Source: Zygnema cylindricum (taxonomy: Eukaryota; Streptophyta; Zygnematophyceae; Zygnematales; Zygnemataceae). From it: 64,000 nucleotides of DNA. Of this stretch, positions 21,228 through 64,000 are shown in pieces. The notes beneath the pieces are model-generated. The model worked only from the letters and a program-made list of their open reading frames with translations. It ran no database searches and was not told the origin of the DNA. The number at the start of each line of letters is the position of its first letter. Position 1 is the first letter of the stretch. The stretch lies in NCBI GenBank assembly GCA_037447655.1, contig JBBHKE010001521.1:186001-250000 (forward strand). Reading direction: 5' to 3'. The position numbers and the translations under genes were made by a program.

Positions 21228-21242
21228 CTCCCCTTATTTTCT
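21228..21242 (-). other. Polypurine tract of the inner copia element
   Basis: Minus strand AGAAAATAAGGGGAG directly abuts the 3' LTR. It also overlaps the stop end of the pol frame (stop at 21241-21243). Confidence 0.85.
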
Positions 21243-23286
21243 AGTCTAATTTTAATTTTTCTTTCAACCCACATTTTTCCCGACAATATTTTAGTTTAGG
21301 AGAGGGCACAGGTTTGGTCATCATGTCAGCCACCATTTCTTCATCAGGTCTATACACAAGATTTAAAATTTTGTTTTCAACTTTTTCTCTTACGAAGCTT
21401 AATCTTATGTCCATATGTTTTGCTTTGAAATGATGTTTTGGATTGGCTGCGATTGCGATTGCAGCTTGATTATCGCAAAAAATTTCATGCACTCCCTCCT
21501 TCATATATCCCAGTTCTTGCAATAATGACTTCACCCACATTAGTTCTTTCACAGCAGAACAAGACGCCATATACTCAGCCTCCATAGTAGACTGAGCAAC
21601 CACCTTTTGTTGCTTACTGCTCCAACAGCAAGCACCTTCCCCAACATACAACACATACCCAGAAGTGCATCGTCTCATAGGTGCGTCCCCATAACTGGCA
21701 TCACTCCAAGTAGTGATGTCAGTGTGCTCCCCTCCCAAATGCAACCATAACTCTCTAGTTCCCACCAGATATCTCATGACTCTCTTGGCTGCCTCCCAAT
21801 CCCTCTTCCTAGGATCATTAAGACTCCTACTGAGTACACCAACTGCCGCCGCTATGTCCGGCCTGGTACAGTTCATAAAATAGATTAAGCTTCCTACGAC
21901 CTGTCTATAAGGGATAGACTTCATGAATTCTCTTTCCTCTGGACTCATCTGATCGTCTAAGATCATCACTCCTCCTTCTACACTCCCATCACTTCCTTTT
22001 TTCAAGTCCATGGGAGTGGTACAACTGTTAGCATTTTCCATCTGGAATTTCTCAAGCATATTACCTATTGCTTCTTTCTGAGTAAGTCTGATAATCTTCT
22101 TCCCCCTATCTCTTTCCATTTGGATCCCCAAAATATATTTTGCCTCCCCTAAATCCTTCATATCAAATCTGCCCCTAAGATCTTTCTTTAGCCTATTGAT
22201 ATTCTCTAAAGACTTACTTAACACAAGCAGATCATCCACATAAATTGCAATAAAAATGACACCATTCTCATCTTCAAACATATAGATAGAATGATCAGAG
22301 CTGATCCGGATGTATCCCAGATCGGTGAGAAACTCATCTAGTTTCTTATTCCACTGTCGGGGAGCCTGTTTCAGTCCATATAAAGACTTTATGAGTCTGC
22401 ACACTTTGCTCTCTTCTCCTTCTTCCACAAACCCCTCGGGTTGCCTCATAAAAATTTCTTCCTCTAACTCACCATTAAGAAAAGCAGTCTTAATATCCAT
22501 CTGGTGAATTTCCATGTCTTCCGCTGCGGCCAGACTGAGGAGAATCCTTACTGATGGGAACCGAACAACTGGAGCAAAGGTCTCCTCATAGTCAATACCC
22601 TCTTTTTGGGTGAACCCCTTCGCTACCAATCGAGCCTTATACCTCTCAATTGTATTATCTGGGTTCAGTTTTAGTTTAAATACCCATTTACATCCAATAG
22701 GTTTTCTGTCTGGAGGGCAATCCGCTAGTTCCCAAGTATTTGCTTCCATGATAGAAGCCATCTCATCATTTATGGCCCTAATCCATCTTTCTTTCTTTGG
22801 ACTATTCACTGCCTCTAAGTAAGACTGAGGCTCATCTGGGTGAGATAGCTTAGTTACCTTATGGGCAGCTTGTTTTTCCTGTATCCTTTTGCTGCTCCTC
22901 CTTCCTCCCTCAAACTCCGAAGCTGGAATGGATGGAAGTCTTGGATTTCTTCTCACTGTCTCATCGGCTCCCCTGTCCATAAAAACCGTATCTTGTCCCG
23001 CTTCTTCCATCTCCTCGAAGTCCATAGGAGTATGTGAGGTTTCCGGTGAGTCTCCTATATCTTCGATCTCCCCTGAGTCTGTAATCACAGTTTCACTCAT
23101 GTCTTTTTCGGGAACGACTGAGTTCTCCTCATTTTCAGACTCAAATCTGATCCTTATCCTTTTTGTATATTTGAAGGGGTCAAATGACTTCCCTTCATCC
23201 ATGACAACTAAGTGTTTGACCAGAATGATATCTTTCTTTGCTAAGTCATAGACTCTATATCCCTTAACATCCTCATCATATCCCAC
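21241..23286 (-). CDS. Inner copia Pol, C-terminal part (linker, reverse transcriptase, RNase H)
   Basis: 681 codons, in the same frame as the upstream 756-codon frame and separated from it by one TAG at 23317-23319. Residues 1-165 are the end of the integrase and an acidic Ser/Glu-rich linker. The copia reverse transcriptase spans about 185-430 (CKWVFKLKLNP, QMDIKTAFLNGEL near 262, SLYGLKQAPRQWN near 301, YVDD at 349-352). RNase H spans about 515-660 (WSDASYGDA near 527, TMEAEYMAS near 568, CDNQAA near 604), then the MMTK...CREKCGL tail. Catalytic residues visible to me are intact. The in-frame Met at the start is internal, not a true start. It makes cDNA in the virus-like particle. Confidence 0.93.
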   Translation of the reverse strand: MGYDEDVKGYRVYDLAKKDIILVKHLVVMDEGKSFDPFKYTKRIRIRFESENEENSVVPEKDMSETVITDSGEIEDIGDSPETSHTPMDFEEMEEAGQDTVFMDRGADETVRRNPRLPSIPASEFEGGRRSSKRIQEKQAAHKVTKLSHPDEPQSYLEAVNSPKKERWIRAINDEMASIMEANTWELADCPPDRKPIGCKWVFKLKLNPDNTIERYKARLVAKGFTQKEGIDYEETFAPVVRFPSVRILLSLAAAEDMEIHQMDIKTAFLNGELEEEIFMRQPEGFVEEGEESKVCRLIKSLYGLKQAPRQWNKKLDEFLTDLGYIRISSDHSIYMFEDENGVIFIAIYVDDLLVLSKSLENINRLKKDLRGRFDMKDLGEAKYILGIQMERDRGKKIIRLTQKEAIGNMLEKFQMENANSCTTPMDLKKGSDGSVEGGVMILDDQMSPEEREFMKSIPYRQVVGSLIYFMNCTRPDIAAAVGVLSRSLNDPRKRDWEAAKRVMRYLVGTRELWLHLGGEHTDITTWSDASYGDAPMRRCTSGYVLYVGEGACCWSSKQQKVVAQSTMEAEYMASCSAVKELMWVKSLLQELGYMKEGVHEIFCDNQAAIAIAANPKHHFKAKHMDIRLSFVREKVENKILNLVYRPDEEMVADMMTKPVPSPKLKYCREKCGLKEKLKLD

Positions 23287-23319
23287 AAAGTATCCAGGTT
23301 TTCCCTTAGCATCTAGTTT

Positions 23320-25590
23320 CTAGTTTTTCCTATCCGTATCAAGACTGTAAACTTGGCTACCAAATACTTTAAGGTGTGAGATATCTGGTTTCCTTCCAAC
23401 CCATCTCTCATAAGGTGTCACTCCCTTTACAGCTGAGGTAAGGACTCTATTTTTAATATAGTTTGCACAGTTCATGGCTTCTGCCCAAAATCTCTTTCCT
23501 ATTTTCTTGTCTGCCAACATACTGCATGCACTATCTCCTAGTGTTCGATTCAACCTCTCAGCTACCCCATTTTGTTCCGGGTTATATGGTACAGTTTTCT
23601 GGTGCTGCACTCCCTCATCTCTCAAATATTCCTCAAACTCGTTAGAGGTATATTCCCCCCCATTATCACTCCTTATCCTCTTAATGGGGGTTTCATGCAA
23701 CTTCTCACTCCAAGCTTTATATTCTTTGAAGTAAGTTGATGCTTCAGACTTATTTTTCAGAAAGTAGACCCTAGAGTATCTAGACCAATCATCAGTTATT
23801 GTCATCATAAATCTTTTTCCTCCAACCGAAGGTACTTTTGCAGGTCCCCAAATATCTGTGTGGACCAAATCTAACACTTTCTCACCTCTATATGTGGCGG
23901 CTTTGGGAAAGGGAAGTCTGTGAGCCTTACCTTGAGCACAACCACTACAATCATCCATCATTTCATTATCCCCAAACTGAATGCCATCTACTACCCCAAG
24001 CTTTTTCATTTCCCTTAACCTATCAAAATGTACATGCCCCAACCGCTTATGCCAAATCATCATCTTAGGGACACCAACATAGTAAGCATTCTTCTTTTCA
24101 TTACTCAAGTTAAGCCTAAACATTCCTTGGCTACCCTTATCTGCTGTGAAGTAAACTTCATCCCCATACTTAGCTGTAAAGACTCCCTTTCTGGTGAAGG
24201 TATCAAACTCTTTGTCATCTAACACAGACGTAGAGACAAGATTTTTACTCAGCTGAGGAATGTAAAGTACATCTGAGAATGTAAGTATAGAAGTCTTACC
24301 CTCCACTAAGACTTTCAGATCTACTGATCCCACTAGATCTGTAGTAACCACTCTCCCATCCCCATACTCTATCTCTACAGTAGGAATCTTTCTTAGCTTA
24401 GTGAAGAGTTCTTTATCACGACACATATGCATGGATGCACCTGAGTCGATGATCCATCCTTCCTGTGGAGCCTCCCGGATGGCTCCAAGGGCACACTTCT
24501 GCCTCCGAGGAATCTCCTTCTCCTCCAAACTCTCGTCAAGAAGAAGCTCCCCATCCTCCTCAGAGGACTCATCCTCGGTTTCTCCTGACACTTTTGTAAC
24601 CACAAGTGCCTTTTTCTTCCCTCCGGAAGAACCCCCTCCACGGTTCTCTTGGAGCCTCAGCTCTGATAGCTTGACACAATCTGCAATAAAGTGTCCCGGC
24701 TTTTTGCAATAATGACAAAGACCCTTTGGGGGCCTCTGTCCCCCTGAATGATCTCTTTCCCCTCTATAAGGTTTCTTCGGGTCCTTCCCCCATCGGTCCC
24801 CTCCTGCTGCTAGAGCTTGAATGCTCTTTCCTCCTCTCCTAATCTCCATTGTGTTCTCCTGCACAAGTATCATCCTGACTACTGTGTTCCATTTCCATGA
24901 ACTATCAGGCATTCCCTGTACTCGGTACACTAAGTTTTCGAACTCATTTGGTAATTTCATGATAAGGGTGTTAACTTTCATTTTCACTGTACCTATCCAC
25001 CCGGCACTTTCCATTTCGGTATACAAACAAGAAAGATCATTACAGTAATCTAGCATCTTTCCTCCTTTGTAAGTGTAACTCAGTAGCTTTTGCTCAGCCA
25101 ACTGGAGCTCTTGAATAGTTCCAGCTCTATAAATTTCCACCAAACTCACCCACAACTCCTCGGCCTTGTAAATGTGAAGATGAGGGGTGGCCAAACCTTG
25201 AGTGAGGTGCCTCAGAATGAAGTTCTTGGCAGCCATGTTTACATCCTCCCACATTTGAGTATCGTTCTCCACGGTCTTCACGATTGCCGCTCCCGATACT
25301 GTGGCAATAGGAGTGAGGGGTGTCTCCTTCCCTTTCCCCTTTTCGGACACACTGCTGTCCCCATCATCTGCCTCTTCCGCCGAGGCAGCCGTTGTTGCAG
25401 GAAACCTTACTCCCCCAAATCCTGGTGGAGTTCCCGAAGGTGGACGTTTCACTTGTCCACTGACGATACCCCAGTATCGTTTTTCACACAAAGCTCCCAT
25501 CATCATGGCTTCCCAATAGATGAACCCAGATCCATTGAAGGTGGGCACCCTAGAGGGTGGGCCCATAACCTGCAATTCTGTGTCCTCCAT
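23320..25590 (-). CDS. Inner copia Gag and Pol N-terminal part (Gag, protease, integrase)
   Basis: 756 codons starting MEDTELQVMGPPSRV. Gag occupies about residues 1-290, with a zinc knuckle C292-x2-C295-x4-H300-x4-C305. The aspartic protease active site is DSGAS at 382. The HHCC zinc site is H514, H519, C548 and C551. The integrase catalytic triad is D579, D642 and E678, a D,D(35)E spacing. The frame then ends at a TAG replacing a Trp codon that is TGG in the family A copy at position 655. The start codon lies inside the 5' LTR and the primer site is translated. A second Met (residue 9), inside the primer site, is an alternative start. Apart from the nonsense codon it looks functional. Confidence 0.94.
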   Translation of the reverse strand: MEDTELQVMGPPSRVPTFNGSGFIYWEAMMMGALCEKRYWGIVSGQVKRPPSGTPPGFGGVRFPATTAASAEEADDGDSSVSEKGKGKETPLTPIATVSGAAIVKTVENDTQMWEDVNMAAKNFILRHLTQGLATPHLHIYKAEELWVSLVEIYRAGTIQELQLAEQKLLSYTYKGGKMLDYCNDLSCLYTEMESAGWIGTVKMKVNTLIMKLPNEFENLVYRVQGMPDSSWKWNTVVRMILVQENTMEIRRGGKSIQALAAGGDRWGKDPKKPYRGERDHSGGQRPPKGLCHYCKKPGHFIADCVKLSELRLQENRGGGSSGGKKKALVVTKVSGETEDESSEEDGELLLDESLEEKEIPRRQKCALGAIREAPQEGWIIDSGASMHMCRDKELFTKLRKIPTVEIEYGDGRVVTTDLVGSVDLKVLVEGKTSILTFSDVLYIPQLSKNLVSTSVLDDKEFDTFTRKGVFTAKYGDEVYFTADKGSQGMFRLNLSNEKKNAYYVGVPKMMIWHKRLGHVHFDRLREMKKLGVVDGIQFGDNEMMDDCSGCAQGKAHRLPFPKAATYRGEKVLDLVHTDIWGPAKVPSVGGKRFMMTITDDWSRYSRVYFLKNKSEASTYFKEYKAWSEKLHETPIKRIRSDNGGEYTSNEFEEYLRDEGVQHQKTVPYNPEQNGVAERLNRTLGDSACSMLADKKIGKRFWAEAMNCANYIKNRVLTSAVKGVTPYERWVGRKPDISHLKVFGSQVYSLDTDRKN
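25556..25570 (-). promoter_or_regulatory. Primer-binding site complementary to the anticodon arm of initiator tRNA-Met (inner element)
   Basis: Directly after the 5' LTR the minus strand reads GGTTATGGGCCCACC. Its complement GGTGGGCCCATAACC is, from memory of plant initiator tRNA-Met, the 5' anticodon stem, the CAU loop and part of the 3' stem. The match is 15 of 15. Drosophila copia is known to be primed by a tRNA-iMet cleaved in the anticodon region. The site is also gag coding sequence (VMGPP). Confidence 0.8.
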
Positions 25591-26606
25591 TGGACTACAG
25601 AATACAGGAAGCCTCTAGATAGTATTTAACTAACCCACTTCAAGCCACAACCACTACTGCCCAAGAAGGCAAACTGACAATTTGACTGCACCCCTGTGTA
25701 GCCTGGACTCCCCTGAGTCCGTAGAAAAAAGAATCACTGAAAAAGGCCAACCAGGCGATAAGTTATGAGGCAGTAAAAATGCCAATTTGTACAAACTCTC
25801 AAAGGGAGAGGTGACCACCTACCAAAATTTTCTAAGTCCTGATTCTCTCTAATAACTCCTATCTACTGAAGTACGGACCAATCAGATTACTGTATCGTAC
25901 ACAAAAGTACTACTGCCGATGTACCTTTTGTACGGCCTATGTACGACAAGGCTATTAAGTGGACGCGTGTCCGTTTTTCACTCGTCCGTACGTTTCTCGG
26001 AATTTCTATGACCGAATGTCATCTCTCCACGTGGCTCCAGGTTATGCCACGTCACAAAACGCCAAAGTGACCACTCCGGGATTTCGGCGATGATGTGCGC
26101 CGTTGGATTTTATGCGAAACGCAATCTTAGCCGTAATAAATATTTGCGCGATATTTGTTCCGATGTCGAAATAAAATGCGCGGTATCCGTTTTGAATTAG
26201 CGTCGTACGACGTACTATATAAAACTGAATCTATGTGCGTCGTACACAGTTCTAGTTTAATGGATTTAATTCTTCCTAACTAAATATATATCTATCACAT
26301 ACCATAGCACTTAGCATTGGTCCTAGTCTATTAGGATAAAGCTGACCGCTACCGGTCAACTTGACGAACCGTAGGTACCGGGATCAAATCTCTGGTCCGT
26401 CAAGTATAATTTTTAGTAACCTACTAAAAATAGCTGTCTGTTGAACTAAAGGCAGCCATGGATCAACCTCTCTCTCTTACCTTCAGTGACTACAACAAGT
26501 ATGGGAGCTAGAGAGCGAGGTGGAGGCAGGCTGTCCGTCCTTTTTTTCCTTTTATTAAAACATATTTAAACCTAGAAAATACTATAGAAATCTATAGATT
26601 TCAACA
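25571..26606 (-). repeat. 5' LTR of the inner copia element
   Basis: Promoter-bearing LTR, TG...CA ended, 1036 bp. Its last 20 bases contain the gag ATG (25588-25590). Confidence 0.95.
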
Positions 26607-48600: not shown

Positions 48601-51600
48601 GTTTGAAAACTCACTATACCAAAATCCATCATAGTGGCTAACAGTTCGATGATGGTTATTGATATAGTAGGAACAATACGATTGGATCTAGCGACATAAG
48701 ATAGGGAAGGGAAAACTAGAGTCAATAGAGTACGTTTTAATAATGTGCTTTAAAATCCGGGGGGTGCATCAATCTCTTAAGTGTCCCGCAACTTCAGAGG
48801 AAAGGTGGAAGAGCCACATGCATGGAAGGGGGTAGAATCATTTTGCGTAGTAAAACATGACCATTTGCAAAGGGGCTTGGAACTAAAAATATGCAAAGTA
48901 GGCTGATTTGGAGACAACTAGAAAATAGGACGGCGAACGAACAAAGGAACCTTCATTTGGCGAGGTCAACATGGAGGACCTCGCGTTGTGGCATCGTCGC
49001 ATGTGTCACACTTCAGAAAGTAGTATCTAAGACATGATTCGTCATGGTGCGGTTTGGGGACTAGACATGAGGATATGAGAAAAGGTTATCGGATGTGTCG
49101 GATGCACAAAAGTGAAGCATGAAAAGAAGCCTCGTCTGGTTCAAGACCTTCACTTCAAGGCGAATGCCCCTTAAAACCTAGTTCATGTAGACCTTTGTGG
49201 TGACATATATCTAAAAACCATTGGAAAAAGGAAATACATTATGGTGATAGTTAATGATTTCAGCAAGAAGACATTGGTGTACCTTTTAAAGGCAAAGTCA
49301 AAAGCATTTGAGACATTTAAAGATTTTGTACTTATGGCTGAGAGGGAAAGTGGTGAAAGACCTTCATTTCAAGGCGAATGCCCCTTTAGACCAAGTTCAT
49401 GTAGACCTTTGTGGTGACATACATCTAAAAAACATTGGAAAAAATAAATACATTATGGTGATAGTTGATGATTTGAGCAAGAAGACATTGGTGTACCTTT
49501 TAATGGCAAAGTCAAAAGCATATAAGACATTTAAAGATTTTTTGGTTATGGTTGAGAGGGGAAGTGGGAGGCAAGTATAAGCAGTACGATTGGACCGTGG
49601 AGGAAGATTTCTTGCCTTCACTGCATATTGTAAAGAAACGGGGATTAAGCAGTTGTTCACGGCTCCTTATTCCCCACAATCAAATGGAATAGCAGAGAGG
49701 AAAAATCACACATTGCAAGAGATGGTGAGGGCCATGCTCCATTCAACAAAACTCACTCATCTTCTTTAGGGAGTGGCAATCAGGTCGGCTAATCATGTTA
49801 CAAACCGGAGAATCAACTCGGCTTTAGGTATTAAAACATCCAGAGAACTTTGGTGAAGATAAGTGCCTACGGTAAAACATTTAAGGATTTCGGGATGTGA
49901 GGCTATGGGGTATGTAGAGGAAAGAAACCAGGAGGGGAAGTTTGCAGCACGGTCATGGGAAGGATACTTTGTGGGGTATAAAAACTCGATGCAGAATCGG
50001 ATTTATAACCCCGTTACTAGGAGGGTTCGAGAGTCTAAAATAGTGGAGTTCAATGAAAATTTGGAATGGATGGTGAAAAGAGCTAATGAGTCTAAACAGG
50101 CCCAAGATTACGAGGAGGATAATCATTATGAAAAATTCATAGGAGAGGAGGAAGAAAAGGTCTAAATAGAGGTAGGGAAAAAGAAAAAAAATGAAATTTG
50201 TAGAGAAAACTTTGGAGAAAGTTCAAAAACCTAAGCCCACCAGCAACGAATCACAAAGCGACAAGGTCATTAGCGAATCATCTACTCACACAAACAACAT
50301 GACACCAGAAGAGACCTTTAGAGAACGAGGGTGATGACAGATTGAGAGCAATGATTCGGATAAATAATTTGCACAGGACGTACGGAGAAGTAAGAGATCA
50401 ACAAAAGGGAAGTAATTCGAACGATTCTCACCAAAAAAGTCATATAAAAAGCAAACTAGTTGCCAGAGTGCAATTTCCAAACTTAGAGAAAGAATGGCGA
50501 AATCCTTCATCTTATGAAAGACAATAACAGAAAATTGTCCAGCCGATCCTTAATCGTATCAAGAGGCTAGAGACTCGGACGAATGGGAGGAGAAGTAGAA
50601 AGCGACATTTATAAAGAAGTTTAATTCTGTGAAAGCTAATGGGTGTTTTGAAGAAGTAGACTTACAAGTTGGTAAGAAGGCGATTGACTTGAAGTGGGTT
50701 TTTAAGACAAAGACAGTTGCCTCGGGAGAAATTCTTAAGTATAAGGTTCGTTGGTATGTAAAGGATTACAACAGAAGGAGGGTATTGATTATTCAGAGAC
50801 TTTTGCAACTGTGGTTAAGTTTGATTCTTTGCGAGCAATTATTGCAATGGCTGCGGTGGAAGGAATGCATATTCAACAGATGGATATAGAGACAACTTTC
50901 TTAAATGGAGAATTAATTGAGGAGATTTATATGAAAATTCCATAAAGAGTTCTTGGAAAGAATGGAAAAGTATGGAGGTTGTGGAAGGCTTTGTATGGTT
51001 TGAAGTAGGCACCAAGAACATGGAACCATAAGATTCACAAGGTTTTACTAATTTTAGGATTTAGGAGGTTTTTTGCAGATTGTGGAGTGTATATTTGGGG
51101 AGAAGGTAGGGACATGGTAATTTTAAGTGTTTACGTAGATGATTTCATTTCTATCCCTCACAACTTGGATTTACTTGGAGAAATAAAGATAGAATTTCAG
51201 AATCATTTTAGAATCACAGATTTAGCAAATGCACAATACATTGTGGGAATTCAAATTCAGAGGAGAAGGGACGGATATATGAAGTTGAGCCAAGAACAAT
51301 ATGCAAAACAGGTACTGGAAAGATTTGGGTTTTTAGATTGTAAGCCACTTATAACTCCCCTTGATCCTCGTGACAAGCTTTCTAATTTTTTTAAAAGTCC
51401 CGAGGTTGATGTTCCGTATAGGGAGGCGGTCGGTAGCTTGATGTATTTGAGTGTCGATACTAGACCTGACATTAGTGACGCAGTGAGTGTTGTTAGTGGG
51501 TATTATGGTAATCCGAAAAAGGTACATTGGGAGGCGGTGAAGAGAATATTAAGGTATTTGGTGGGAACACTTAGTCTTGGAATAGTTTATAAAAAAGATG

Positions 51601-53960: not shown

Positions 53961-54264
53961 ATCTACTCCCCTTCCCCCTACCTACACCCTTTCCCTCTCC
54001 CTCTCTCTCCCTCTCCCTCTCCCTCTCCCTCTCCCACTCACCCTCCTCCCCCTCTCCCCCTCCCCTTCCCCCTCCCACAACATCTCCCCTCCCCCTCTCC
54101 CTCTACCTCCCCCATCTCTCTCCCTCTCCCTCCCCCTCTTTCTCCCACTCACTCTCTCTCTCTGCACCTCCCTCTCCATTCTCTCTCACTCCCTCTCCCT
54201 CAGACTATCCCTATCCCTCTCCCTCCCCCTCCCCCCCACCCCCCCCCCCCCCCCCCCCCCCCCC
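53961..54264. repeat. CT-rich microsatellite ending in a C homopolymer
   Basis: CCCTCT and CTCTCC runs over about 290 bp end in roughly 26 consecutive C. The gypsy fragment starts right after it. Frames through it encode only Pro, Leu and Ser. Confidence 0.9.
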
Positions 54265-54329
54265 CTCAGAGGTGGCAAGGGGCCACATTGATCTGATTCT
54301 CTTTATTTCTCCGACCATCTTTCCCCTAC

Positions 54330-55417
54330 AAAGTTCGAACTCCCTTGCTTGAAACTTTCACCACCTTCAAAATCACCCGTCTGGCAAAGATGTTAAGCGT
54401 ATCCTTCTTCTGTTGCATTCGATACACAAAGTCTCCCGGCATAAATTGTCCCTGTCGGGCACATAATTTCCCCTTCGACGCTGGGAATACCACAATTGAT
54501 CCTGGTGTTGTGCCACCTGTAAATTCCACATGGCAAGAGGTATCTCTTGAGGGAAAATTTTGGCACGGTCGGCGATCAGTTTTTCGACGGTTCCTTTCTC
54601 ATCCATTCCAGGGAAGACCACCGCTTAGGCCGAAGCAACCCCGAGCAGAATAGGATGTCGTCCGAATAAAATGAAGTAAAGACTATAGGAGTGGAGAGAA
54701 GCCTGTCTGCTGAATTTGTATCCCATGGCAATCCAAGGCACCCTTTTGTCCCACTCTCCCAAGTCCTCTTCAACTGCATATTTTCGTAGTGACCGCTTCA
54801 CTGTCTGTACGCACCTTTCGGCCAAACCGTCGGCTTAGGGGTGGTCGCGACTGGTAAGTCGATGGTTGATGAGGCATTTCTCCAAAAGATTGGTAAATTC
54901 TCCGTCGAATTCCGATCCCTGGTCTGTCAGAACCTCTGCTGGCGCCCCAAACTGTGACAAGACTCTCTGCAGAAAGGCGTCGGCAATGGACTTGGACTCC
55001 TTTCGAGGCAGGACCACAAGCTCTATCCATTTTGAGAAATGTTCAGTTATGACCAGAACGAAACGATTCCCACGTCTGCTGGTCGGAAGAGGTCCCAAAA
55101 GATCCAAAGACCACCAATAAAACATTCCCCTGAAGGGAAGAGAATGGAGCAGAGTCCCGCCCTTTTTTGTCAAAAGCTGCCTTAACTCGATCACAGGAAG
55201 AGCAAGTCTGTACAATTCGGTTGACTTGGGCCCGCAACCCGTGCCACCAGTATGAGCCTGTAACCAAGGAAGTGGTTCGCTTCTGTCCGAAGTGTCCACA
55301 TTGTTTATGGAGATTGGTGATCAGAGTTTCTCGATCTGAGGGAGGAGGAACCACTTTCCTAGTACCGTCTGACCATTTGTGGAGGAGCACTCCTCGGTCC
55401 CATTCATACGCCACCAT
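54330..55417 (-). pseudogene. Gypsy integrase, broken
   Basis: Zinc region (HKQCGHFGQKRT...WWHGLRAQV...CSSC) at about 55330-55190, then the core: LDLLGPLPTSRRGNRFV, LTDQGSEFDGEF and, after a TAA at 54835-54837, GLAERCVQTVKRSL. These give the D, D, E residues. The C-terminal GPY/F-like part (MPGDFVYRMQQKKDTLNIFA, RRVILKVVKVSSKGVRTL) reaches about 54330 in another frame. At least two frameshifts (near 55120 and 54600) and one stop are present. No chromodomain was recognised. Confidence 0.85.
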
Positions 55418-55438
55418 CCGGGTCTGAACTCGGGATAA

Positions 55439-57061
55439 TTAAATTCCAGCCAAATGGGGAAGAGGGGATCCCTGCTGAATATATTGGAGAGCTTTGGAGT
55501 CATTCCAAATATCTTTCCGTCCAGCTCCTATGGGTGCCTGCCCCTCAACATCTGCTGCAAAAGTTGAGAATTCCCCCCCAGATGGAGGAAGCCAAAGGAA
55601 GGCGGAGGATGCTTGAATGAGTCCCAAACTGATTTTCGGATCCTCGTTGTGCCAGCCCCGAAAATCAAGGGTAGAAGGATCAAGGTTTCGGCTTAGTCCG
55701 TCGGCATTCCCATGAATTTCCCCTGCCCGGTAGACAATGCTGAAATCATATTTCTGTAGGATATGAACCCATCTGGCGAGTTTGCTGGTCAACTTACTAT
55801 TTTCCAGGATCCACTTCAAGGGTTGGTGATCGGTGATCAGTGTGAAATGGACCCCGTACAAATAAGGTCTGAAATGCTGGATGGCCCAAACCGCGGCAAG
55901 AAGCTCCCCATGATAACTACTATAATTCCCCTCAGCTCGGTTATTGCTCCGGCTGGCGTAAGCCACCACATACTCGGCACCTGCGTCGTTAACTTGAGCC
56001 AAAACAGCTCCCAATCTCAACTTGCTCCAATCAGTGTAAAGGAGGAAAGGCCTCTGGTGATCAGGCATCCGGAGCACTGGGTGCTGCTTCAGGGCATCCT
56101 TTAAGAAATGGAAAGCAATTTGCTGTTCCTCGGCCCACTACCATTCTTGATCTTTCCGTAATAGCTTATTGAGGGGCTGGGCCTGACTACTGAACTCGGG
56201 AATAAACTTGCGATAGTAGTTAGCCAGGCCGAGAAAGGTGCACAAAGCAGAATTGTCCTACGGGGGAGGAAGAGCGTCGAGGGCTGCAACCTTCACCATA
56301 TGGGGACCCACTGTCCCACGAGTTACCTCATGTCCGAGGTAAATGATTTTTCTGCACCCCAAAAGTACCCTTGCCCGAGGGACATTTCAAGCCCGCTGCT
56401 TGAAGAGCCCGGAGAACGATCTCGATATGCTCTAGGTGTTCTTCAAAGGTCTTGGAAAATATTATCACATCGTCGATGTAGCACCTGGCACAATCGATTC
56501 CTTGGAGCGCTTCGTCCATGGCCCGCTGGAACTTTTCTGGTGCATTCTTCAGTCCGAAAGGCATGTAAATCCACTCATAAAGTCTGGATCCTGCTCAGAA
56601 TGTCGTTCTCTCCTGGTATTTTGGTTCCATGGCAATCTGGTGGAAACCATTCTTCATGTCCAGTGTGGAGAAAATAGTGGCCCCAGCAAGAGAGTCGAAT
56701 ATCTCTTCCGGAGTGGGCATTGGGTACCGGTCAGGAATGGTGGCCGTGTTCAACATGCGGTAGTCCCCACACATCAGAAGTCCACAGTTTTCCCGGATGA
56801 ATCTTTCTTATGAGGGTGAACTGTGGGGGAAGCAAACCCATGTAGTCCGGTACTTTCCTGAACCAACCTTGCGTCTACCAAAGTTTGAACCTTTGCAGTA
56901 ATAAACTCTTTCTCTTTCAAGCTGAGAGGATATTGTTTCTGCCAAACCGTTGCGGTTTCGTCGATCAAATCTATCCGGAAGGGGGTTCCTTTGTAGATTC
57001 CGACATCTGTTTCGGACCATGAGAAAACCTGAGTGTTTCTAGCCAAGAGTTCTGTTAGCTA
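55439..57061 (-). pseudogene. Gypsy reverse transcriptase and RNase H, broken
   Basis: From 57046: FSWSETDVGIYKGTPFRIDL and ASPTVHPHKKDSSGK; then, after a frame change near 56775, CGDYRMLNTATIPDRYPMPT, STLDMKNGFHQI, a TGA at 56595-56597 where an Arg is expected, MPFGLKNAPEKFQRAMDEAL and CYIDDVIIFSK (YIDD active site). RNase H runs 56077-55439: LLYTDWSKLRLGAVL, SSYHGELLAAVWAI, LITDHQPLKWIL, GEIHGNADGLSR. A TAG at 57059-57061 lies just upstream. These motifs place it firmly in Ty3/gypsy. Confidence 0.9.
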
Positions 57062-57096: not shown

Positions 57097-58075
57097 TCAA
57101 GTCCATTTTTTCGGCTCGACCGCAGCCGAAGCTTCCGGTGGTCTTCCCCAGAGGTTGATGTCGAATTCTAGCACAACCTGTGGATCTGCCACTATTCCTC
57201 CGAAAAATACTTTACTGCTGACAACTTCCGCTAAGCCGTCTCCTTTTGATCTCCCGTTCCCCCCCGCTGAAGGAACTCTCGGGTGTAGAATTTTTCTCTT
57301 TTCTCTCCCCCCCTCAAGCTGCAAAGTTGCTTGCATGGACAAAAACTGTGGAGCTTGAAGGTAATTTCTGCGTGAATCTGGAGCGTGGAGACTGGAATAG
57401 GCAAGAGCATGTTTTACAACCCATGTAATGGCATTTAAATCCATGCTTTGCCCTATGAGGCTGCACCGCTGTAGGTTTGAAATACCTGGTGCTGCCGTGG
57501 TTTCCGGATGAAATCCCATCGCGTGTTCTCGTTCCGTTATTGTTGGTGCTGTCCAAAGTCTTTCCTTGCTGTCAAAAATCATTCTAGCGGCTCCGTTCCG
57601 GTAGGCGTGACTGTGAGGAAAAGATACCAACGTGGGGAGTGCTCGACGCGGGAATCCTAGGATATTGCATTGGAAGAAAGGTGTGCGATCCGGTTTGGTT
57701 ACAGGTGTCGCCATTCTCCCTTTTCGAAGTATTTGATGCACTGAAATCTGGGGGTCGGGGGTTTGTGTCTTTAACAGTTGCCAGAGGACAGGAAGAGGGA
57801 TCATATTGGTCCAATATGGCCGGAGTCTGTGCGCTCGAGATCCCACTTGAGCAGCGTCAAAAACTAAGGGAGCTCCCAGAATACGGGTTACCTGATTCCA
57901 ACTTTCTGCAACCTGCTTTCGTTTATCATCTCCCGGGTGGACATTCTCCAGAATGTACCCCACTGGGGTGTTTTGGAGCTGCTAAATCCACGATATCAAT
58001 GTAATCATCTGATAGAAGGTTCCACTTCGGTGGTCCTGATGCCCTCTTCCTTGTCCTGCATAAGACCCTCGAGGG
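57097..58075 (-). pseudogene. Retrotransposon-borne C5-cytosine DNA methyltransferase, C-terminal half (DNMT3-like), copy A
   Basis: Starting near 58075 the frame gives GQGRGHQD...FYQMITLISWI (region after motif IV), a TAG at 57982-57984, then motif VI (YILENVHPGDDKR), a motif VIII-like AHRLRPYWTN, motif IX (TITEREHAMGF) and motif X (QRCSLIGQSMDLNAITWVVK). AHR-x-R-xx-W and the ERE-MGF...LIGQS end resemble DNMT3 proteins, and the motif order is canonical, unlike plant DRM enzymes. A C-terminal extension of about 100 residues leads to the reverse transcriptase in another frame (offset at a T6/A6 run, 57106-57111). Predicted role is cytosine methylation of DNA. This copy is inactive. Confidence 0.85.
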
Positions 58076-58199
58076 AATCAAAAACTGCGACGAGTTCACC
58101 CTAGAGCTCGCGTGTCTGAGGCCGGTATAACCTGGTTATACTAGGGAGAAGGACAGGAGACCGTTGACAATTTCTGTGTTTGGGGGCTGGGGGTCTAAA
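58076..58199. other. Unassigned edge next to the gap
   Basis: Short unique sequence between the end of recognisable methyltransferase homology and the gap. I see no feature. Confidence 0.4.
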
Positions 58200-58209
58200 N
58201 NNNNNNNNN
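58200..58209. other. Assembly gap (10 N)
   Basis: Ten N. True size unknown. It is followed by GA-rich DNA, so the join may be unreliable. Confidence 0.99.
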
Positions 58210-58324
58210 GAGAGAGAGTTAGAGAGAGAGTGAGAGACAGGAGAGAGTTAAAGAAAGAATTTGGTCGAGAGAGTGGCGAGAGTGATTGGTTGAGAGAGCT
58301 GGTTTAAGAAAGAAATTGAGAGAG

Positions 58325-58406
<82 letters not shown>

Positions 58407-58450
58407 GAGAGATTGAAATAAATATGGCGAGAGAATTAATGCGAGAGTGT
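58210..58450. repeat. GA-rich microsatellite
   Basis: GAGAGA-rich throughout, with an unbroken (GA)n of about 75 bp at 58328-58402. Confidence 0.95.
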
Positions 58451-59042
58451 TAGAGAGATCAAAAGACTTCGGGAGAAAGGATTGAGCTGAAGCCTCTTCA
58501 AGATTGCACTCTGTTTTCTGTAACTCAAAATGGTCATTTTTGGGCCAAAGGTGGAGGGCAGCAGCCCTTTATGCTGCAATCCTTTTGGTTTTTTTTAGAG
58601 AAGTTGCACTAACCAATTTTTTTTTTTTGTTGCCCGTAATGCGGCTCCCCTCCGTGAGCCGTCGATGACGCGGGTTCGAAATCGAACGCATCCGCGTGAT
58701 TCTAAAATGGTATGCGTCATCTTGGTGATGGCCGTCGATCTCCAAAGTCAAAAAAAAACTTTTTCGTAGAAACTTCGCCGCTCACTTTCAAAAAATCCCG
58801 CCGAAAATTTCCGGCTCCTCCAGCGGTCACGTCTTGGAGTACCACTGTCCCTCCGTACGGTCGATCCACCAAAACTTCGCAACAAGGATTTATATCGTAG
58901 CGAGTCCACAAACGATACTCGACAATATCGCTACGCACCTAGAATGGATCGAAAGAACGACACTCACTGTCTCATTGTACAAGCGCTTTAGCGCTTTCGT
59001 GATCAGAGGACAAAAAGTAAAAACCGGCACCTGATTAAGGCT
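58451..59042. other. No gene recognised
   Basis: Moderate-GC unique sequence. A GGGTTCGAAATC word near 58667 resembles a tRNA B box, but no A box or cloverleaf is apparent. Confidence 0.4.
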
Positions 59043-59050
59043 ATTTGCGG

Positions 59051-59354
59051 CATAGTTCAAAAGTAGGTGAAAGTAGGCCCATAGAATATGCCTATGATAT
59101 GCAAAACATACAATATGACCTTAAGACCCATATTGTATTCGGACCTGTTGGACCAATAATACATTCAGAACAAAAATTGGACCAATTAAAACATTTGGAC
59201 AAAAAAAATATATTTTCACCGTCAAATTCAGAAGATCGGACAGTCGCTGATCAAAGTAGCGATCTAAGAAGATCACATGAAAATCCCATAACACAACTTA
59301 CGATAAAGGAGCCGACCAAAGGCCTACCATTAAAACGCCTGCTTTATAACTATA
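59051..59354. mobile_element. hAT-like MITE, second copy
   Basis: Same left end as the element at 11520 (CATAGTTCAAAAGTAGGT) and a diverged right end (GCTTTATAACTATA). The flanking 8-mers are ATTTGCGG (59043-59050) and ATTTGCGC (59355-59362), 7 of 8 matching. Internal similarity includes CCTTAAGACCCATATTGTATT and AAGATCACATGAAAA. It is 304 bp against 577 bp, so one is an internal-deletion form. Confidence 0.8.
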
Positions 59355-59400
59355 ATTTGCGCTAATAACAATTCACCGTGCATGCCTGCATGGTACAGCT

Positions 59401-59987
59401 CAGAGGTCGCAAAAGTCAAAATTTTACATAATCGAAACCGACCGTTTTTTTTTTTCAAAATCTGAGTAACCGACAACCGACCGGGTTATGTCACGCACCA
59501 AAATTGTTAACCGTTAACCGACCGGCGTTTACGAAAATAAAAGTTAACCGAAACTCGATTTCTCGCGACTAACCATGCCCGCCCGTAACTGAAAAAGTAC
59601 AAAATTACAACGCTCATTGTTATTAGCGTTAATGTACTTTGCAATAATGTACGACGTATAAATAAGCCAATAATTACGATTTGTCGCGTTCCCTAAGATT
59701 TGTGAAATGAATAGTGTTACTATCGTGTTAGATTTGGGACGCTAATCATGATGTCACGTACTTCCACGATACCAAAGTGTACAAAGTACAATAATGTTGA
59801 ATTGTATCAACAGTACAAAATTTTCAATATTTTTGGTTAACCGACCGTAACCAACTTTTTTTTCTGGTGAATCAACCGGCCGCAACCGCCCGACCCCCAA
59901 AATTTGGCAACCGAATCCGTTCCAGATCCAGCGCGGGCGGTCGGTTAACGGTCGGTCACTATTTCGGTTGACCGTTTGCGACCTCTG
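59401..59987. mobile_element. MITE with CAGAGGTCGCAAA ends
   Basis: Left end CAGAGGTCGCAAA, right end TTTGCGACCTCTG, a perfect 13-bp inverted repeat, with further imperfect pairing inside. Flanking 8-mers are GTACAGCT and ATACAGCT (7 of 8). CAG-type ends and 8-bp duplications suggest hAT. The interior is packed with AACCGACCG and CGGTTAACGG words. No coding region. Confidence 0.78.
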
Positions 59988-60158
59988 ATACAGCTCGAAA
60001 GCGATATTAGCATCACTTGAAACATCTACTGTAGTCTGCCCGATTTTATATTTGACGGTCGCGATGGAAAGAAGTGGATACTACACTGCAGTAACTTGTC
60101 TCTAACAGTCCAAAGCAAACGGCAACCGGACATGTTGGCACGGAAAAAAGGTTCAGTA

Positions 60159-60794
60159 CACCGCTAATCGTTATTAGCGTTAATAACACTATTTTTGTCG
60201 CGGTATTTTCCGGCCCGACATTAAATTAGTGTTACCAACATTAAAAAATAATTAGGCAAATATGAAAAGTAATTATTTAGTGTTAAGCCTTTATACTACG
60301 TTTGTCAAAATTAGTGTGATGTATGAGAAGCTTGTTTTCGTACATCGTGTCCACGTGCCATCTCATTTATACAATATTAATTGATTTTCGCATGGAAATT
60401 ACACTTCAATACCAGTTAGCGGCAGAAAGAGCGGAACATACAAAGCATAAAATAGCGTAAATTTTACTCATTTTACATGTTTCCTTCATCTCCCACTCCC
60501 CCTCACGCCCCCTCTCTCTTCCCCTCTCTCCCTCATCTCCCTCTCGCTTACCTTTTCAAAACCCCACAACTACTTAATTTGGCGAAAGCTGTCAAGGTAG
60601 TACACTTGTACTTGAGATAGTCTTGATGACAACTCAGCGTAGATGCTACGAAGTTGAAACAGGAATTGGATTTAAGTGCCAAATTAATGTTATTGATTTT
60701 TTTTCTTTTCGACACAAAATCATAAATTAACCTTACTAACACCAAATTAGCGTTTGCGTTATTTTTTCTTTAACACTAATAACAATTAGCGGTG
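60159..60794. mobile_element. Stowaway-like MITE, long form
   Basis: Inverted ends CACCGCTAATCGTTATTAG and CTAATAACAATTAGCGGTG, with TA at 60157-60158 and 60795-60796. The right part shares TTTTTTCTTTAACACTAATAA with the MITE at 46576, so they belong to one family. 636 bp, non-coding. Confidence 0.82.
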
Positions 60795-60918
60795 TAGTTA
60801 TTAGTGTTCTGTATCGAATAAAGATAAATACCAATAATTATCAGTTATTGAACGATGAAGGGTCGTGGTATATCCCTCAAGAACCAACAAATGTTTTATC
60901 GCCGCTAAGCAAAGGTCA

Positions 60919-61080
60919 CAATCGGGTACACAAACATGGTTGTACCCGAATGTGATTTTTTCCGTTTTTGAATAACCCAGCCGAATCTGGCCGGCCCCCA
61001 ATATTTGAAATCCGGATCCATTCCGAATCCGATGCAAACCGTTTGTGTACGGTTCGGGTACATATTTGAGTACCGGATTG
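60919..61080. mobile_element. Possible small inverted-repeat element
   Basis: Ends CAATCGGGTACACAAACATG and CATATTTGAGTACCGGATTG are an imperfect inverted pair of 162-bp span. The flanking bases do not form a clear duplication. Confidence 0.35.
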
Positions 61081-61568
61081 TGTAAAAGGGCAAGATAGTA
61101 ACCCACAACACACTATAAGGCACAGCGGAAAGACTCCAAGGATCCCCCAGTAGCAAGAACAAAAGTACACAGCACTCATAGATAAAGGTCCAACTTTATT
61201 AATCAAGAGGAAGATTACAAGTTGACAGCTCACTGTAAAGGTCTACTCAAAGAGTCTGTCTTTTATTACGCCTGTCCCACTATTTAAACTAACTAGCTGC
61301 TAGTGAACTTAACACTCTACAAGTGTACACGTGGACCTTCACGGTCAACCGAGATCTATCCAAAATATATTTCTAGAACTATACAGTTAAATTTACATTC
61401 TTCGGCGTTGCTACACTGCCACAGTGCGCTGCTATGCTACGCTACGCTATTCTACTTAGTTGCTATGTTACTATGTTGCGCTGATCTAGAATCGCAGCAG
61501 CGCTCCTCCGCAACCACAACCATAGCAGTCTGGTCTCTAGCCCTTAAGTACTCAACTCTGTAATGTCA
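61081..61568 (-). repeat. Possible solo LTR
   Basis: Starts TGTAAAAGGG and ends CTCTGTAATGTCA, giving TG...CA ends in either orientation. It contains TTTATTAATCAAG and TATTTAAA-like words. No target duplication found and no second copy in the window, so this is tentative. Confidence 0.3.
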
Positions 61569-61817
61569 AGCGTGCCCGAGAATCCCCGGGAAGGGCCCAC
61601 AGCCTGGGGTAGTTGGCCTCGGATTCCTGCAAAGAACCCCCCCCCCCTCCAAATGCGAAAGGCTTCCCAAAATAATGATCATGCCCCCTGCTGACCCCCC
61701 ATCTTTCCCATAGATATGCATACAAAGATAGGAGAGACACCGGAACCAGGAGTAAGAGAAAGTGCATGGGGGGGGGGGGGCGAAAAGATCTCGTTTCCCC
61801 CTTCCTTTCCCATTAGG
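61569..61817. other. No gene recognised
   Basis: GC-richer stretch with C10 and G13 homopolymers, between the possible LTR and the broken end of gypsy copy B. Confidence 0.4.
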
Positions 61818-62438
61818 TCAGGGAAAGGGATTCACTGGTGTGTCCTGGAGCTGCTGAATCCACGATATTAATGTAATCATATGGTAGAAGGTGCTACTCC
61901 TGCGGTCTTGATGCCCTTTTCCTTGACCTGTGAGGGAGTATCCATGACAAGGCGATCCTACCACAACCAGATCAATTCTGCCCAGATTTGCTAAATGGGG
62001 TGCCATAATGTTATCCACATTCTGGGGAAGACTCCGGTGAGCTTTGGAAATGGAAGACACGGGAAGCTGTTGAGGAAATAGGCGGTGCAGCTGATGAAGT
62101 CGATGTTCGCTGACAACTTGTGCTTCCGGCGAAATCTCCACTGTTGTATATGACTCCACCCGATATCGTGCTTTCAAAACTGCTTCCAGATCGGAACTGA
62201 TTCTTGAAAATAAAGATAAAATCCAAAGTCCGGTGTCGGGGACGGTCAATGACACCACTTGTCGATTGAAGTCCTTGTTACCTGTCTTGGTTGGGAAAAC
62301 ATCTGACAGGGTGGTCGAATCTATTTTCGGTAATAATAATAAGGCTGAGAATGCCTGATCTACTCTTTGCCGGAGTTTCGTTACCTGCAATAATCTATTT
62401 GTGTATTCCCCTTCCCACCGCTTGGAAATCGGGAATTG
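61818..62438 (-). pseudogene. Retrotransposon-borne C5-cytosine DNA methyltransferase, N-terminal half (DNMT3-like), copy B
   Basis: In the same frame as the protease upstream. After a linker, motif I reads LWILSLFSRISSDLEAVLKA (near residues 55-74 of the 61818-62390 frame), with Arg and Ser where Gly residues of the AdoMet-binding loop are expected. Motif II carries Glu in TTVEISPEA. Motif IV has the catalytic Pro-Cys in DLVVVGSPCHGYSLTGQGKG (PC at 147-148), followed by HQDRRSSTFYHMI. LSLF at motif I is typical of DNMT3 proteins. Homology to copy A stops after LQDTPV, where unrelated sequence supplies a stop. The expected product would methylate cytosine in DNA, possibly the element's own cDNA; that role is inference. 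Confidence 0.85.
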
Positions 62439-63020
62439 CTAGATGTCTCCTGCGATATCTATTGAACTGTCGAACAACTCCGCCGGAGAGGATGTGGAAT
62501 ACACTGGGTAACAGCCAGACACAGGAACATTGGTCTTTTCCCAGTTCCATAAATCCAAAGGAACCACAACTTTGGTGCCTTCGGGATTTCTGGGGTCCCG
62601 AACTGTACATTGCTCTTTCCAATCACTTAAACTCATATTCATCCGGGTCCAAGTAGCCATTCCCAACAGGATTTCAAACTGATTCCCTTCTACCACTAAG
62701 AAAGGAAGTTCAATTTTCACCTTCTGTCAAGCATCATCGGAGAATTCAATGTTCATGGCTTTGATGATTCCATGGACGGGCTGATTGTCGCCGCTGACCG
62801 TGCTTAAGCAGATGTTACTTGGGCAAATTTGGGGTCTGAGTTCACCCGACATTTTCTGCAATGCGGAAGTGGTGATAAGGTTTGGAAGTGCTCCGGTGTC
62901 GACCACATCGTCTTGGTACCCGCTGTACCCATTAAGCTTGAAGTTGCCCGTCCGGTTCAGAATGAGCGCTACAGACAAGGTTTTGTAGTCCATATCCACC
63001 ATAGGGGTTTTAGGCTCTGT
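62439..63020 (-). pseudogene. Gypsy aspartic protease domain
   Basis: The active-site loop is DDVVDTGALPNLIT (DTGA) near 62910, followed about 80 residues later by the retropepsin-style FEILLGMATWTRMN (ILLG). They are separated by one in-frame TGA at 62727. After it come about 50 residues with no recognised domain, ending at TAG 62439 before the methyltransferase. The role is cleavage of the polyprotein. Single-DTGA proteases of this kind act as dimers. Confidence 0.8.
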
Positions 63021-64000
63021 TCACAAATATACCGTCGTGGGTGTTGTTGCCCGGTTGACTTTTTCCTTGCCCGAATGAATTTCTTCTCCCAAGGCCTGAA
63101 TGAGGATATCTTCGGGCAAATTATGGGAGGAAGCGAGGGTCTTAACATGAGTCAAGGCATATGGCATAAGGTGCCGGACTAGCATGACAGCAGGCTTTGA
63201 GGAAGGGAGTGGGGCTCTTGGGGATGAAGCCAGCGAATCTGGCTCGCGATCCTTTTCGTTCCCCTCCTTGTAATCACTTTCAGAACCGGAATCGGGCATT
63301 GGTGGAGTTTTGGGTGCCCCCTCGTCCGGACGTTCGCCCATGAACCGTTCAAACCAATCTTGAGTGCTTTGTTTGTCCTCTTCCAGTGATTTCTTCTCCT
63401 GCTGTAGTTTCTTGCTCTTGTAACTTTCGAAACCGGGAGGCAGTTTAGGCTTAGGAGGAGGAGGAGGAGGTTGGGTGGGCTTGATTCCAAGACCTGTGTC
63501 ACTGTTCAGCACTACTGCCCGGGGCGTGAAAGATAAAGGCCCGATGGCCTTCCGGTTGTGGTCCATCTTGCTCATTTTCTGCTTGTCTCTCCTTTGATCA
63601 GAGGTTGAAGAGCGGAGTGGTCTACGACCATCTCCCACTCTCACATTCCACGCTCCGTGAAGTAAACTGCTAGCATGGTGGGCATTTGGGGGTTCCAAAT
63701 CCCAGCCCATCATCTCATCTTCGTTAGCACCCGATGTGCTTTGAAGCTCAAGCTCCGCTAGCTTTTGTAGTAACTCTTGCTTCTGTCTTTGTAGTCGTTG
63801 CCCTGCCGTAAGAGGAGCAAGCCGGTAAGTCGATCCCAAACGAAGAGCAGCCAATTCTGCAACCATGGCAGCCATCTGCTGACTCTGCTGTTGGATTATT
63901 ATCTCCGGTGTAAGTCTTGCTGGAGCAGTCGTTAATTGTTTTGGTGTCACTGGTGTAGGCAGCACTGGGCGCTCAAGGGTAAAGGAGTTGTAGGGGAAGA
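63021..64000 (-). pseudogene. Gypsy polyprotein N-terminal region with coiled coil and proline-rich linker
   Basis: The frame is open through the window edge, so no start codon can be chosen. It contains a Gln/Leu-rich helix likely to form a coiled coil (QQSQQMAAMVAELAALRLG, then LQRQKQELLQKLAELELQS), a PPPPPPKPKLPPGFE stretch, and an acidic Ser/Glu/Asp-rich tail. No CCHC knuckle is visible. It precedes the protease, so it is the end of Gag or a Gag-Pol linker. It stops at TGA 63021 in frame with the protease. Confidence 0.65.

Follow-up and report, generated by a model that had tools for sequence, protein, structure and literature searches.

Retrotransposons that carry captured cytosine methyltransferases (MTases) have been described before. 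KnitGypsy-Dnmt3 of Klebsormidium nitens is a gypsy element with a captured DNMT3 MTase, and SymbioDIRS-Dnmt3 and SymbioLINE-Dnmt of Symbiodinium carry captured cytosine MTases under purifying selection (de Mendoza et al., 2018; PMC5890265, available part). For the SymbioDIRS-Dnmt3 enzyme de novo CG methylation in yeast was reported there (PMC5890265). A paper from 2025 refers again to MTase-carrying retrotransposons (PMC12344493); the accessible text of PMC9033089 deals with host methyltransferases and that of PMC12477816 with an MTase domain of another type (N4C/N6A) carried by a DNA transposon. Here, we analyzed 64,000 nucleotides of the Zygnema cylindricum genome (assembly GCA_037447655.1, contig JBBHKE010001521.1, positions 186,001 to 250,000, forward strand), referred to as the window throughout. 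A preliminary description, made from the letters alone, had proposed a DNMT3-like MTase captured by a Ty3/gypsy retrotransposon at this place. Its caution that such captures have precedent was justified, as with KnitGypsy-Dnmt3 MTase capture itself is already published (PMC5890265).

On its minus strand the window contains two degraded copies that belong to a single Ty3/gypsy-type family with a DNMT3-type cytosine MTase, termed family I. The order in this family is gag, protease, UAG and then one frame with MTase, reverse transcriptase (RT), RNase H, integrase and a PHD-like end, found in many copies, some of them with the whole frame open. A second such family of the same genome was termed family II. 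As described for KnitGypsy-Dnmt3 in the available part of PMC5890265, the DNMT3-type MTase of the window family is neither rearranged nor interrupted by introns, belongs to the Pol frame and is under purifying selection. Compared by description only, the domain content of KnitGypsy-Dnmt3 matches both families, and its DIRS-like repeats (Fig. 4 legend of PMC5890265) resemble those of one family II copy. The Symbiodinium elements share with both families a retrotransposon-borne cytosine MTase under purifying selection, but they are DIRS (tyrosine recombinase) and LINE elements (PMC5890265, available part), whereas families I and II are gypsy elements with an rve integrase. The conserved stop before the MTase in family I and the PHD finger are not mentioned for KnitGypsy-Dnmt3 in the accessible portion of PMC5890265, and the literature found, in its available parts, gave no account of a PHD finger on a DNMT-carrying gypsy element nor of a stop before its MTase; in PMC6317226 a text search with six terms had no match. 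New with respect to these texts are the conserved border sequence UAG-CAATTC, the PHD finger, the presence of a second such family in the same genome and the relatives in bryophytes, all of which also go beyond the preliminary description. We favor, with moderate confidence, the reading that family I acquired a DNMT3-type MTase, kept it between protease and RT and, with its amount set by readthrough, employs it to methylate its own cDNA before integration.

The features of the two window copies are given below in the reading direction of the minus strand; L numbers denote genome loci that are introduced further below.

63021..63998, minus strand: copy B, open reading frame (ORF) upstream of the protease (linker after gag), running past the window end
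62442..63020 (core 62589-62948), minus strand: copy B, aspartic protease (VDTGALPNL) with an internal stop, tblastn with the L013 protease, 78% identity
62439..62441, minus strand: copy B, TAG followed by CAATTC, candidate leaky stop at the protease/MTase border, a stop common to 20/20 junctions
61830..62438, minus strand: copy B, N half of the DNMT3-like MTase with motifs I and IV (ORF 62438-61818; ORF, Pfam and tblastn)
61075..61620, minus strand: long terminal repeat (LTR)-like stretch 3' of copy B, by eye (poly-G tract, polyadenylation signals)
57097..58065, minus strand: copy A, C half of the DNMT3-like MTase and tail (tblastn with the L013 MTase over 57361-58065, 70%)
56243..56977, minus strand: copy A, RT in three frame pieces (tblastn 83-89%; Pfam RVT_1 E 4.6e-15)
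55733..56212, minus strand: copy A, RNase H (Pfam RT_RNaseH E 2.3e-35; 90% to L013)
54628..55492, minus strand: copy A, integrase with one frameshift, comprising an H2C2 zinc finger and the rve core (Integrase_H2C2 E 1.4e-16, rve E 3.3e-12)
54263..54627, minus strand: copy A, C-terminal part of the integrase, ending beside a poly-C tract (blastn to L013 8669-4818 ends at 54263)

Two retrotransposon fragments with DNMT3-like MTase halves were thus confirmed for the window, and the claim of complementary halves on minus-strand gypsy fragments held; both (61830-62438 and 57097-58065) are collinear with gypsy parts. In copy B the protease (62948-62589) leads into the MTase, and blastn homology to family I loci reaches approximately 63926. 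The Pfam scan of the window's two protease pieces gave no match; the L013 protease matched Asp_protease_2 with E 2.1e-4 and 22.3 bits, under the cut-off of 24.3. The ORF 62438-61818 matched Pfam DNA_methylase (E 2.7e-5) with LSLF in motif I and SPC in motif IV; 13 of its alignments to genome copies ended at 61833 and a further one at 61837. Motifs I and IV in copy B and ENV, AHR and motif X in copy A were confirmed, but those of copy B are altered. The key G of motif I is replaced by R (LSLFSRI, in other copies LSLFSGI) and motif IV reads GSPCHG instead of GWPCQG. Because of these changes copy B is probably dead. The LTR-like stretch at 61075-61620 had L028 (270-716, 75.8%) as its sole match among the genome loci and none in the 3' parts of ten family I loci; its assignment as a family I LTR was not supported.

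Copy A is collinear from MTase via RT and RNase H to integrase, and six genome copies align with it unbroken from 58059 to 54263. Its ORF 57981-57097 holds ENV, AHRLRPYW, GF and motif X; this C half was missed by the Pfam scan. A frameshift and a stop (TGA) at 57097 lie between MTase and RT, neither of which is present in L012 and L013. The integrase is 85-89% identical to that of L013. As the alignment ends at L013 8669 and the PHD ligands of L013 begin at 8721, copy A is cut off just before the PHD finger. A 10-N assembly gap is located at 58200-58209. The overlap of the two halves, given before as about 100 bp, measured 98 nt (57961-58058 versus 61833-61930) at 84.7% identity. Relative to one and the same copy in L024, copy B was 91.0% and copy A 83.3% identical. 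Copies A and B are therefore two separate copies, and one element split by a later insertion is ruled out by these unequal identities together with the 84.7% overlap.

The genome assembly of the window comprises 352.8 Mb in 2689 contigs. Scanning it with Pfam DNA_methylase yielded 782 first-look candidates and, from these, 123 scored matches, among which there may be host enzymes. Eleven of the scored matches sit in open frames of at least 900 aa with no stop within the match. The scan with the family I RT scored 150 matches from 3297 candidates. One family I RT match (G000:C961:71791-72525) lies in a 5743-aa open frame, perhaps owing to N stretches. By MTase score 26 loci of approximately 10 kb each (L009-L034) were chosen, which are not a random sample and do not provide a genome-wide rate. 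A family I or II MTase was present in 25 of them. Upstream on the strand of the MTase 23 loci carried a protease, 21 had an RT downstream, and tblastn recognized a PHD-like end in 16. Protease, MTase and RT followed in this order on one strand in 19/26 loci. The preliminary description would have been abandoned for an MTase never contiguous with gypsy pol or for an interrupted host gene; the 19 ordered loci show the contrary. A single intronless open frame covers both MTase and RT in each of L009, L010, L011, L012 and L013. Three of four RT loci from outside the MTase list also had an MTase upstream, and L039 had none within 1.1 kb. The family I layout is best seen in L012 and L013, with gag and protease parts, the stop, and a frame of 1520-1525 aa for MTase, RT, RNase H, integrase and PHD-like end; the gag-protease side of both is broken. 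A subgroup of family I (L017, L023, L028, L031, L032, L033) has MTases approximately 51-58% identical to that of L013. The Ty3/gypsy domain order of protease, RT, RNase H and integrase (rve) was found. Pfam scans of L009, L012 and L013 gave no match for a phage integrase (tyrosine recombinase), the rve integrase being present instead. At L028 2367-4231 a different gypsy RT/RNase H lies on the opposite strand between the MTase and PHD parts of the family I copy; it is a nested or rearranged insertion. The locus without an MTase of either family at 1e-8, L019 (G000:C514:126680-126928), nevertheless matched Pfam DNA_methylase with E 5.7e-11 and is perhaps an exon of a host C5 methyltransferase or a third type.

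At the border of protease and MTase the position of a stop codon is common to all 20 family I junctions found (19 TAG, 1 TAA), and in 17 of them CAATTC follows directly. The junctions were from the window, L012, L013, L015-L017, L020, L021, L024 (two), L023 and L025-L033; L022 has no protease and hence no junction. The stop is kept across subgroups with saturated synonymous sites (proportion of synonymous differences, pS, 0.83 for the L013-L031 MTase). Type I leaky stops follow the consensus UAG-CARYYA, and a leaky UAG stands at an ORF border in murine leukemia virus (MuLV) gag-pol, tobacco mosaic virus (TMV) and SIRE1. Family I resembles these systems in the UAG at the ORF border and the in-frame continuation, with CAA after the stop as in TMV, but differs in its hexamer CAATTC and in that the border separates protease from methyltransferase. 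This conservation suggests leaky termination at the UAG, and readthrough appears the likeliest way to make MTase plus Pol. A hairpin just 3' of the stop was predicted, with z values of -3.5 and -3.6 for two copies, while three others ranged from -1.0 to -1.7; as a readthrough signal it is suggestive only. Alternatively, the UAG might not be read through, and translation of the MTase-pol frame might depend on splicing or on a new start at an internal AUG, which we regard as rather unlikely. Ten of 19 junctions, from closely related copies, offer an in-frame Met 19 codons past the stop for such a start; this set of 19 includes one of the two L024 junctions. However, 7/19 have no in-frame Met between stop and motif I, so internal initiation cannot yield a whole MTase in those copies. 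Two further junctions have no Met in 110 codons, with motif I not found there. Finally, the codons CAA and TTC are retained though CAG and TTT would serve, which also argues for readthrough.

For the class of the MTase a profile (A4) of 14 rows from own-genome and database copies, with no window rows, was compared to the PDB. Among the best 60 of 84 matches DNMT3A ranked at E 5.3e-22, DRM at 2.1e-10, HaeIII/HhaI at approximately 1e-8, DNMT2 at 2.7e-8 and DNMT1 at 0.05. The catalytic Cys, EN and R-x-R were invariant in 14/14 rows, and the motif order is canonical, unlike that of the rearranged DRM. The AlphaFold model of the database relative P0046 reached a pLDDT above 85 in 29 of 34 ten-residue blocks over 341-680, with a low protease part and a mean of 64. 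All 50 rows listed by Foldseek for this model were DNMT3 entries (TM-score by target 0.41-0.83). Profile and predicted fold support a DNMT3-type MTase of the family. The earlier DNMT3 assignment was therefore sustained for the family but less so for the window itself. The N half of copy B alone matched bacterial C5 MTases (E 0.045, 0.081) slightly ahead of DNMT3C (0.12), all weakly, and the C half of copy A had DNMT3A as its best, also weak match (E 0.16). A 50-row MTase tree of window halves, families I and II and database relatives, rooted for drawing only, placed the window halves inside family I (7-row set, support 100/99). Their pairing (95/81) is of little meaning, since few columns are common. 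The node that unites families I and II, to the exclusion of most database relatives, has weak support (66/83).

The MTase is under purifying selection, and it is less constrained than the RT. The seven family I MTase pairs with usable Ks gave ratios of nonsynonymous to synonymous substitution rates (Ka/Ks) of 0.12-0.27, among them 0.15 for L013-L012, 0.12 for L013-L029, 0.16 for L028-L031 and 0.24-0.27 for L012-L029, L020-L029 and L021-L013. For the RT 0.11 was found in L013-L012 and in L013-L029, with values of up to 0.59 (L023-L032). Medians of usable pairs were 0.26 (14 pairs) and 0.24 for the MTase queries versus 0.11 (15 pairs) and 0.12 for the RT. The family II MTase gave 0.10 for L018-L009, with one stop in L018, and 0.32 for L009-L010 on two differences only. 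Synonymous sites are saturated among L009, L011 and L034, with proportions of nonsynonymous differences (pN) of 0.10-0.14 in the MTase and approximately 0.04 in the RT; for L009-L034 pS was 0.82 and pN 0.134 and 0.042, respectively.

A C-terminal PHD finger was recognized clearly in family II and more weakly in family I. The end of L009 (family II) scored 38.1 bits with Pfam PHD (cut-off 24), and the best PDB match of the family II domain was PHF12 (E 4e-16), followed by the PHD fingers of BAZ2B, WSTF, KDM5 (lid) and PHF21A. The C4HC3 zinc-ligand pattern is complete in 11/26 loci from both families, seven of them family I. By analogy to its relatives, the domain may bind histone H3. Chromoviruses carry a chromodomain on the gypsy integrase. 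Families I and II are like them in having a histone-reading type of domain at the C end of the integrase, but it is a PHD finger, not a chromodomain. Host DNMT3 possesses an ADD domain that reads H3; the joint presence of DNMT3 and PHD finger within a single polyprotein is reminiscent of this arrangement.

From this anatomy we deduced how the favored cDNA methylation might work. Gag and protease would be translated as one frame. Most ribosomes would halt at the UAG and release Gag-protease, and a minority would read through into the long product, by which the MTase would enter the virus-like particle in the same dose as Pol. Inside the particle, it could methylate the new cDNA, probably at CG, before integration. 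The copy would thus be marked on arrival in the genome, where it might either be taken for resident DNA or stay silent and be tolerated. On the side of the integrase, the PHD finger might recognize histone H3 tails and contribute to the choice of target chromatin. Methylation of the own cDNA would be the likeliest role of the MTase.

We are aware that several observations weigh against this scenario. Among the family I copies checked, none has gag, protease and pol frames all unbroken. Near the border decayed copies contain other stops, up to 50 codons upstream in 4/19 and up to 110 codons downstream in 4/19. CAATTC fits the leaky consensus at 5/6 bases, with a different last base. L009 (family II) and the database relatives P0046 and P0088 are without a stop at the border, so that the stop is family-specific. 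The family I PHD remained under the Pfam cut-off of 24 (L012 21.5, L013 17.5 bits; best PDB E 1.3e-5). The MTase evolves faster than the RT, as the medians of 0.26 versus 0.11 show. Observed/expected CpG was 0.58-0.77 in 18/19 family I loci (L033 0.87) with GpC at 0.72-0.94, compared to 0.79-1.04 in family II and 0.76 in the rest of the window; as this depletion is mild, there is no clear scar of self-methylation. Finally, the isolated KnitGypsy-Dnmt3 enzyme was inactive in yeast, a result that its authors call inconclusive (PMC5890265, available part).

Among other roles, the MTase might act as a brake that methylates and silences own or rival copies, so that the element persists at tolerable activity. 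We consider this unlikely, yet it is not far-fetched: purifying selection fits any useful role, and slower retrotransposition is among the options discussed in the accessible part of PMC5890265. A strict brake is at odds with the many copies and with the family II copy whose repeats are 931/931 identical. The chances are smaller that the MTase alters host chromatin, or shields particle DNA from host nucleases or deaminases, instead of marking the element. The same anatomy would serve both, an H3-reading-type PHD finger is part of the same polyprotein, and shielding from editing is discussed in the part of PMC5890265 at hand. A functionless passenger domain kept by chance is very improbable. 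Parts of the MTase are indeed missing in some copies, and one of the four sampled RT loci has no MTase within 1.1 kb upstream, but the Ka/Ks values of 0.12-0.27 in seven family I pairs and 0.10 in L018-L009 (family II) and the invariant catalytic Cys, EN and R-x-R in the 14 A4 rows speak against it. A host DNMT3 gene or pseudogene into which gypsy elements inserted by chance, as the window alone with its two differently flanked fragments might suggest, is ruled out for all practical purposes by the 123 scored MTase matches, the contiguous copies in 19/26 loci and the intronless open frames through MTase and RT in L009-L013.

The elements raise the question why a parasite of a methylating host carries the host's own silencing enzyme. 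With many copies, open frames, two families, bryophyte relatives and a possible expression signal, this question becomes testable beyond Symbiodinium and Klebsormidium.

Relatives in other organisms were found at the protein level. The C half of copy A had 20 database protein relatives (best E 1.2e-38, 45% identity); for the N half of copy B alone none was found among 208 candidates. The profile search returned 423 proteins at E ≤1e-5 among 7998 scored candidates, with organism names from the 120 listed. Among these 120 were proteins P0043 and P0115 of the liverwort Calypogeia fissa, from contigs 8.8 and 13.3 Mb long, and P0065 of the moss Sphagnum troendelagicum on a 23.2-Mb contig. By eye, a D-T/S-G protease precedes the MTase within a single frame in P0046 and P0088, and the tail of a protease was recognized in P0043, P0024, P0068 and P0069. 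No RT was seen in these six proteins, and no protease in P0065 and P0115. The protease suggests that the six proteins are elements. Methylase-encoding transposons were stated to be not present in 'land plants, such as tracheophytes' (PMC6338049, available part). If they are elements, the Calypogeia fissa and Sphagnum relatives are at odds with this statement, at least for bryophytes. One ancient streptophyte lineage might even be envisaged, with a single capture around or before the time when land plants arose and survival in algae, liverworts and mosses, in which a packaged DNMT3 writer dosed by a leaky UAG would methylate cDNA and a PHD reader on the integrase would guide insertion according to the state of histone H3; this extended scenario we put forward only tentatively and hold to be doubtful. 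A member of the MTase family, P0066, is filed under a bacterial metagenome-assembled genome (Candidatus Obscuribacterales) and is probably eukaryotic DNA with a binning error. In the viral_contigs and genome_contigs collections 18 and 25 stretches matched the pattern, none of which was confirmed as a relative. P0004 was matched by 29 phage records, all at less than 60% identity.

Family II consists of L009, L010, L011, L014, L018 and L034, and its whole domain set can be one frame (2395 aa in L009). Motif IV reads ECQG instead of PCQG in L009, L011 and L034. In L009 (4849-5808, plus strand), L011, L034 and protein P0121 the sequence is WECQG, in which E-C replaces the near-invariant P-C and the catalytic Cys is kept. 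The repeat structure rests on one copy of this family:

G000:C1344:85514-96154: copy of family II whose direct repeats are split, in the order A1-coding-B1-A2-B2

A1 and A2 are identical in 931/931 positions. B1 follows a poly-G tract directly behind the ORF, and B2, which closes the element, is 99.6% identical to B1 over 243 nt. The termini are TGTC...GACA, flanked by TTGG on both sides, a 4-bp match that can be due to chance. In L010 B1 likewise adjoins A2. The internal B1-A2 joint retains two extra bases (GACA-GC-TGTC), which, judged from this one copy, would be explained by an integrase that trimmed one base per outer end. The copy may represent a DIRS-like repeat layout in an element with a DDE (rve) integrase or, alternatively, a rearranged single copy.

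Elsewhere in the window a nearly intact Ty1/copia polyprotein lies on the minus strand at 21241-25614, in two adjoining frames (764 and 692 aa) split by a stop. Positions 59042-59358, between the two MTase copies, and 11511-12100 form a repeat of 82-85% identity, and 59400-59987 matches L010 8402-7587. Tandem Repeats Finder detected two 214-bp tandem copies with 91% matches at 49143-49567.

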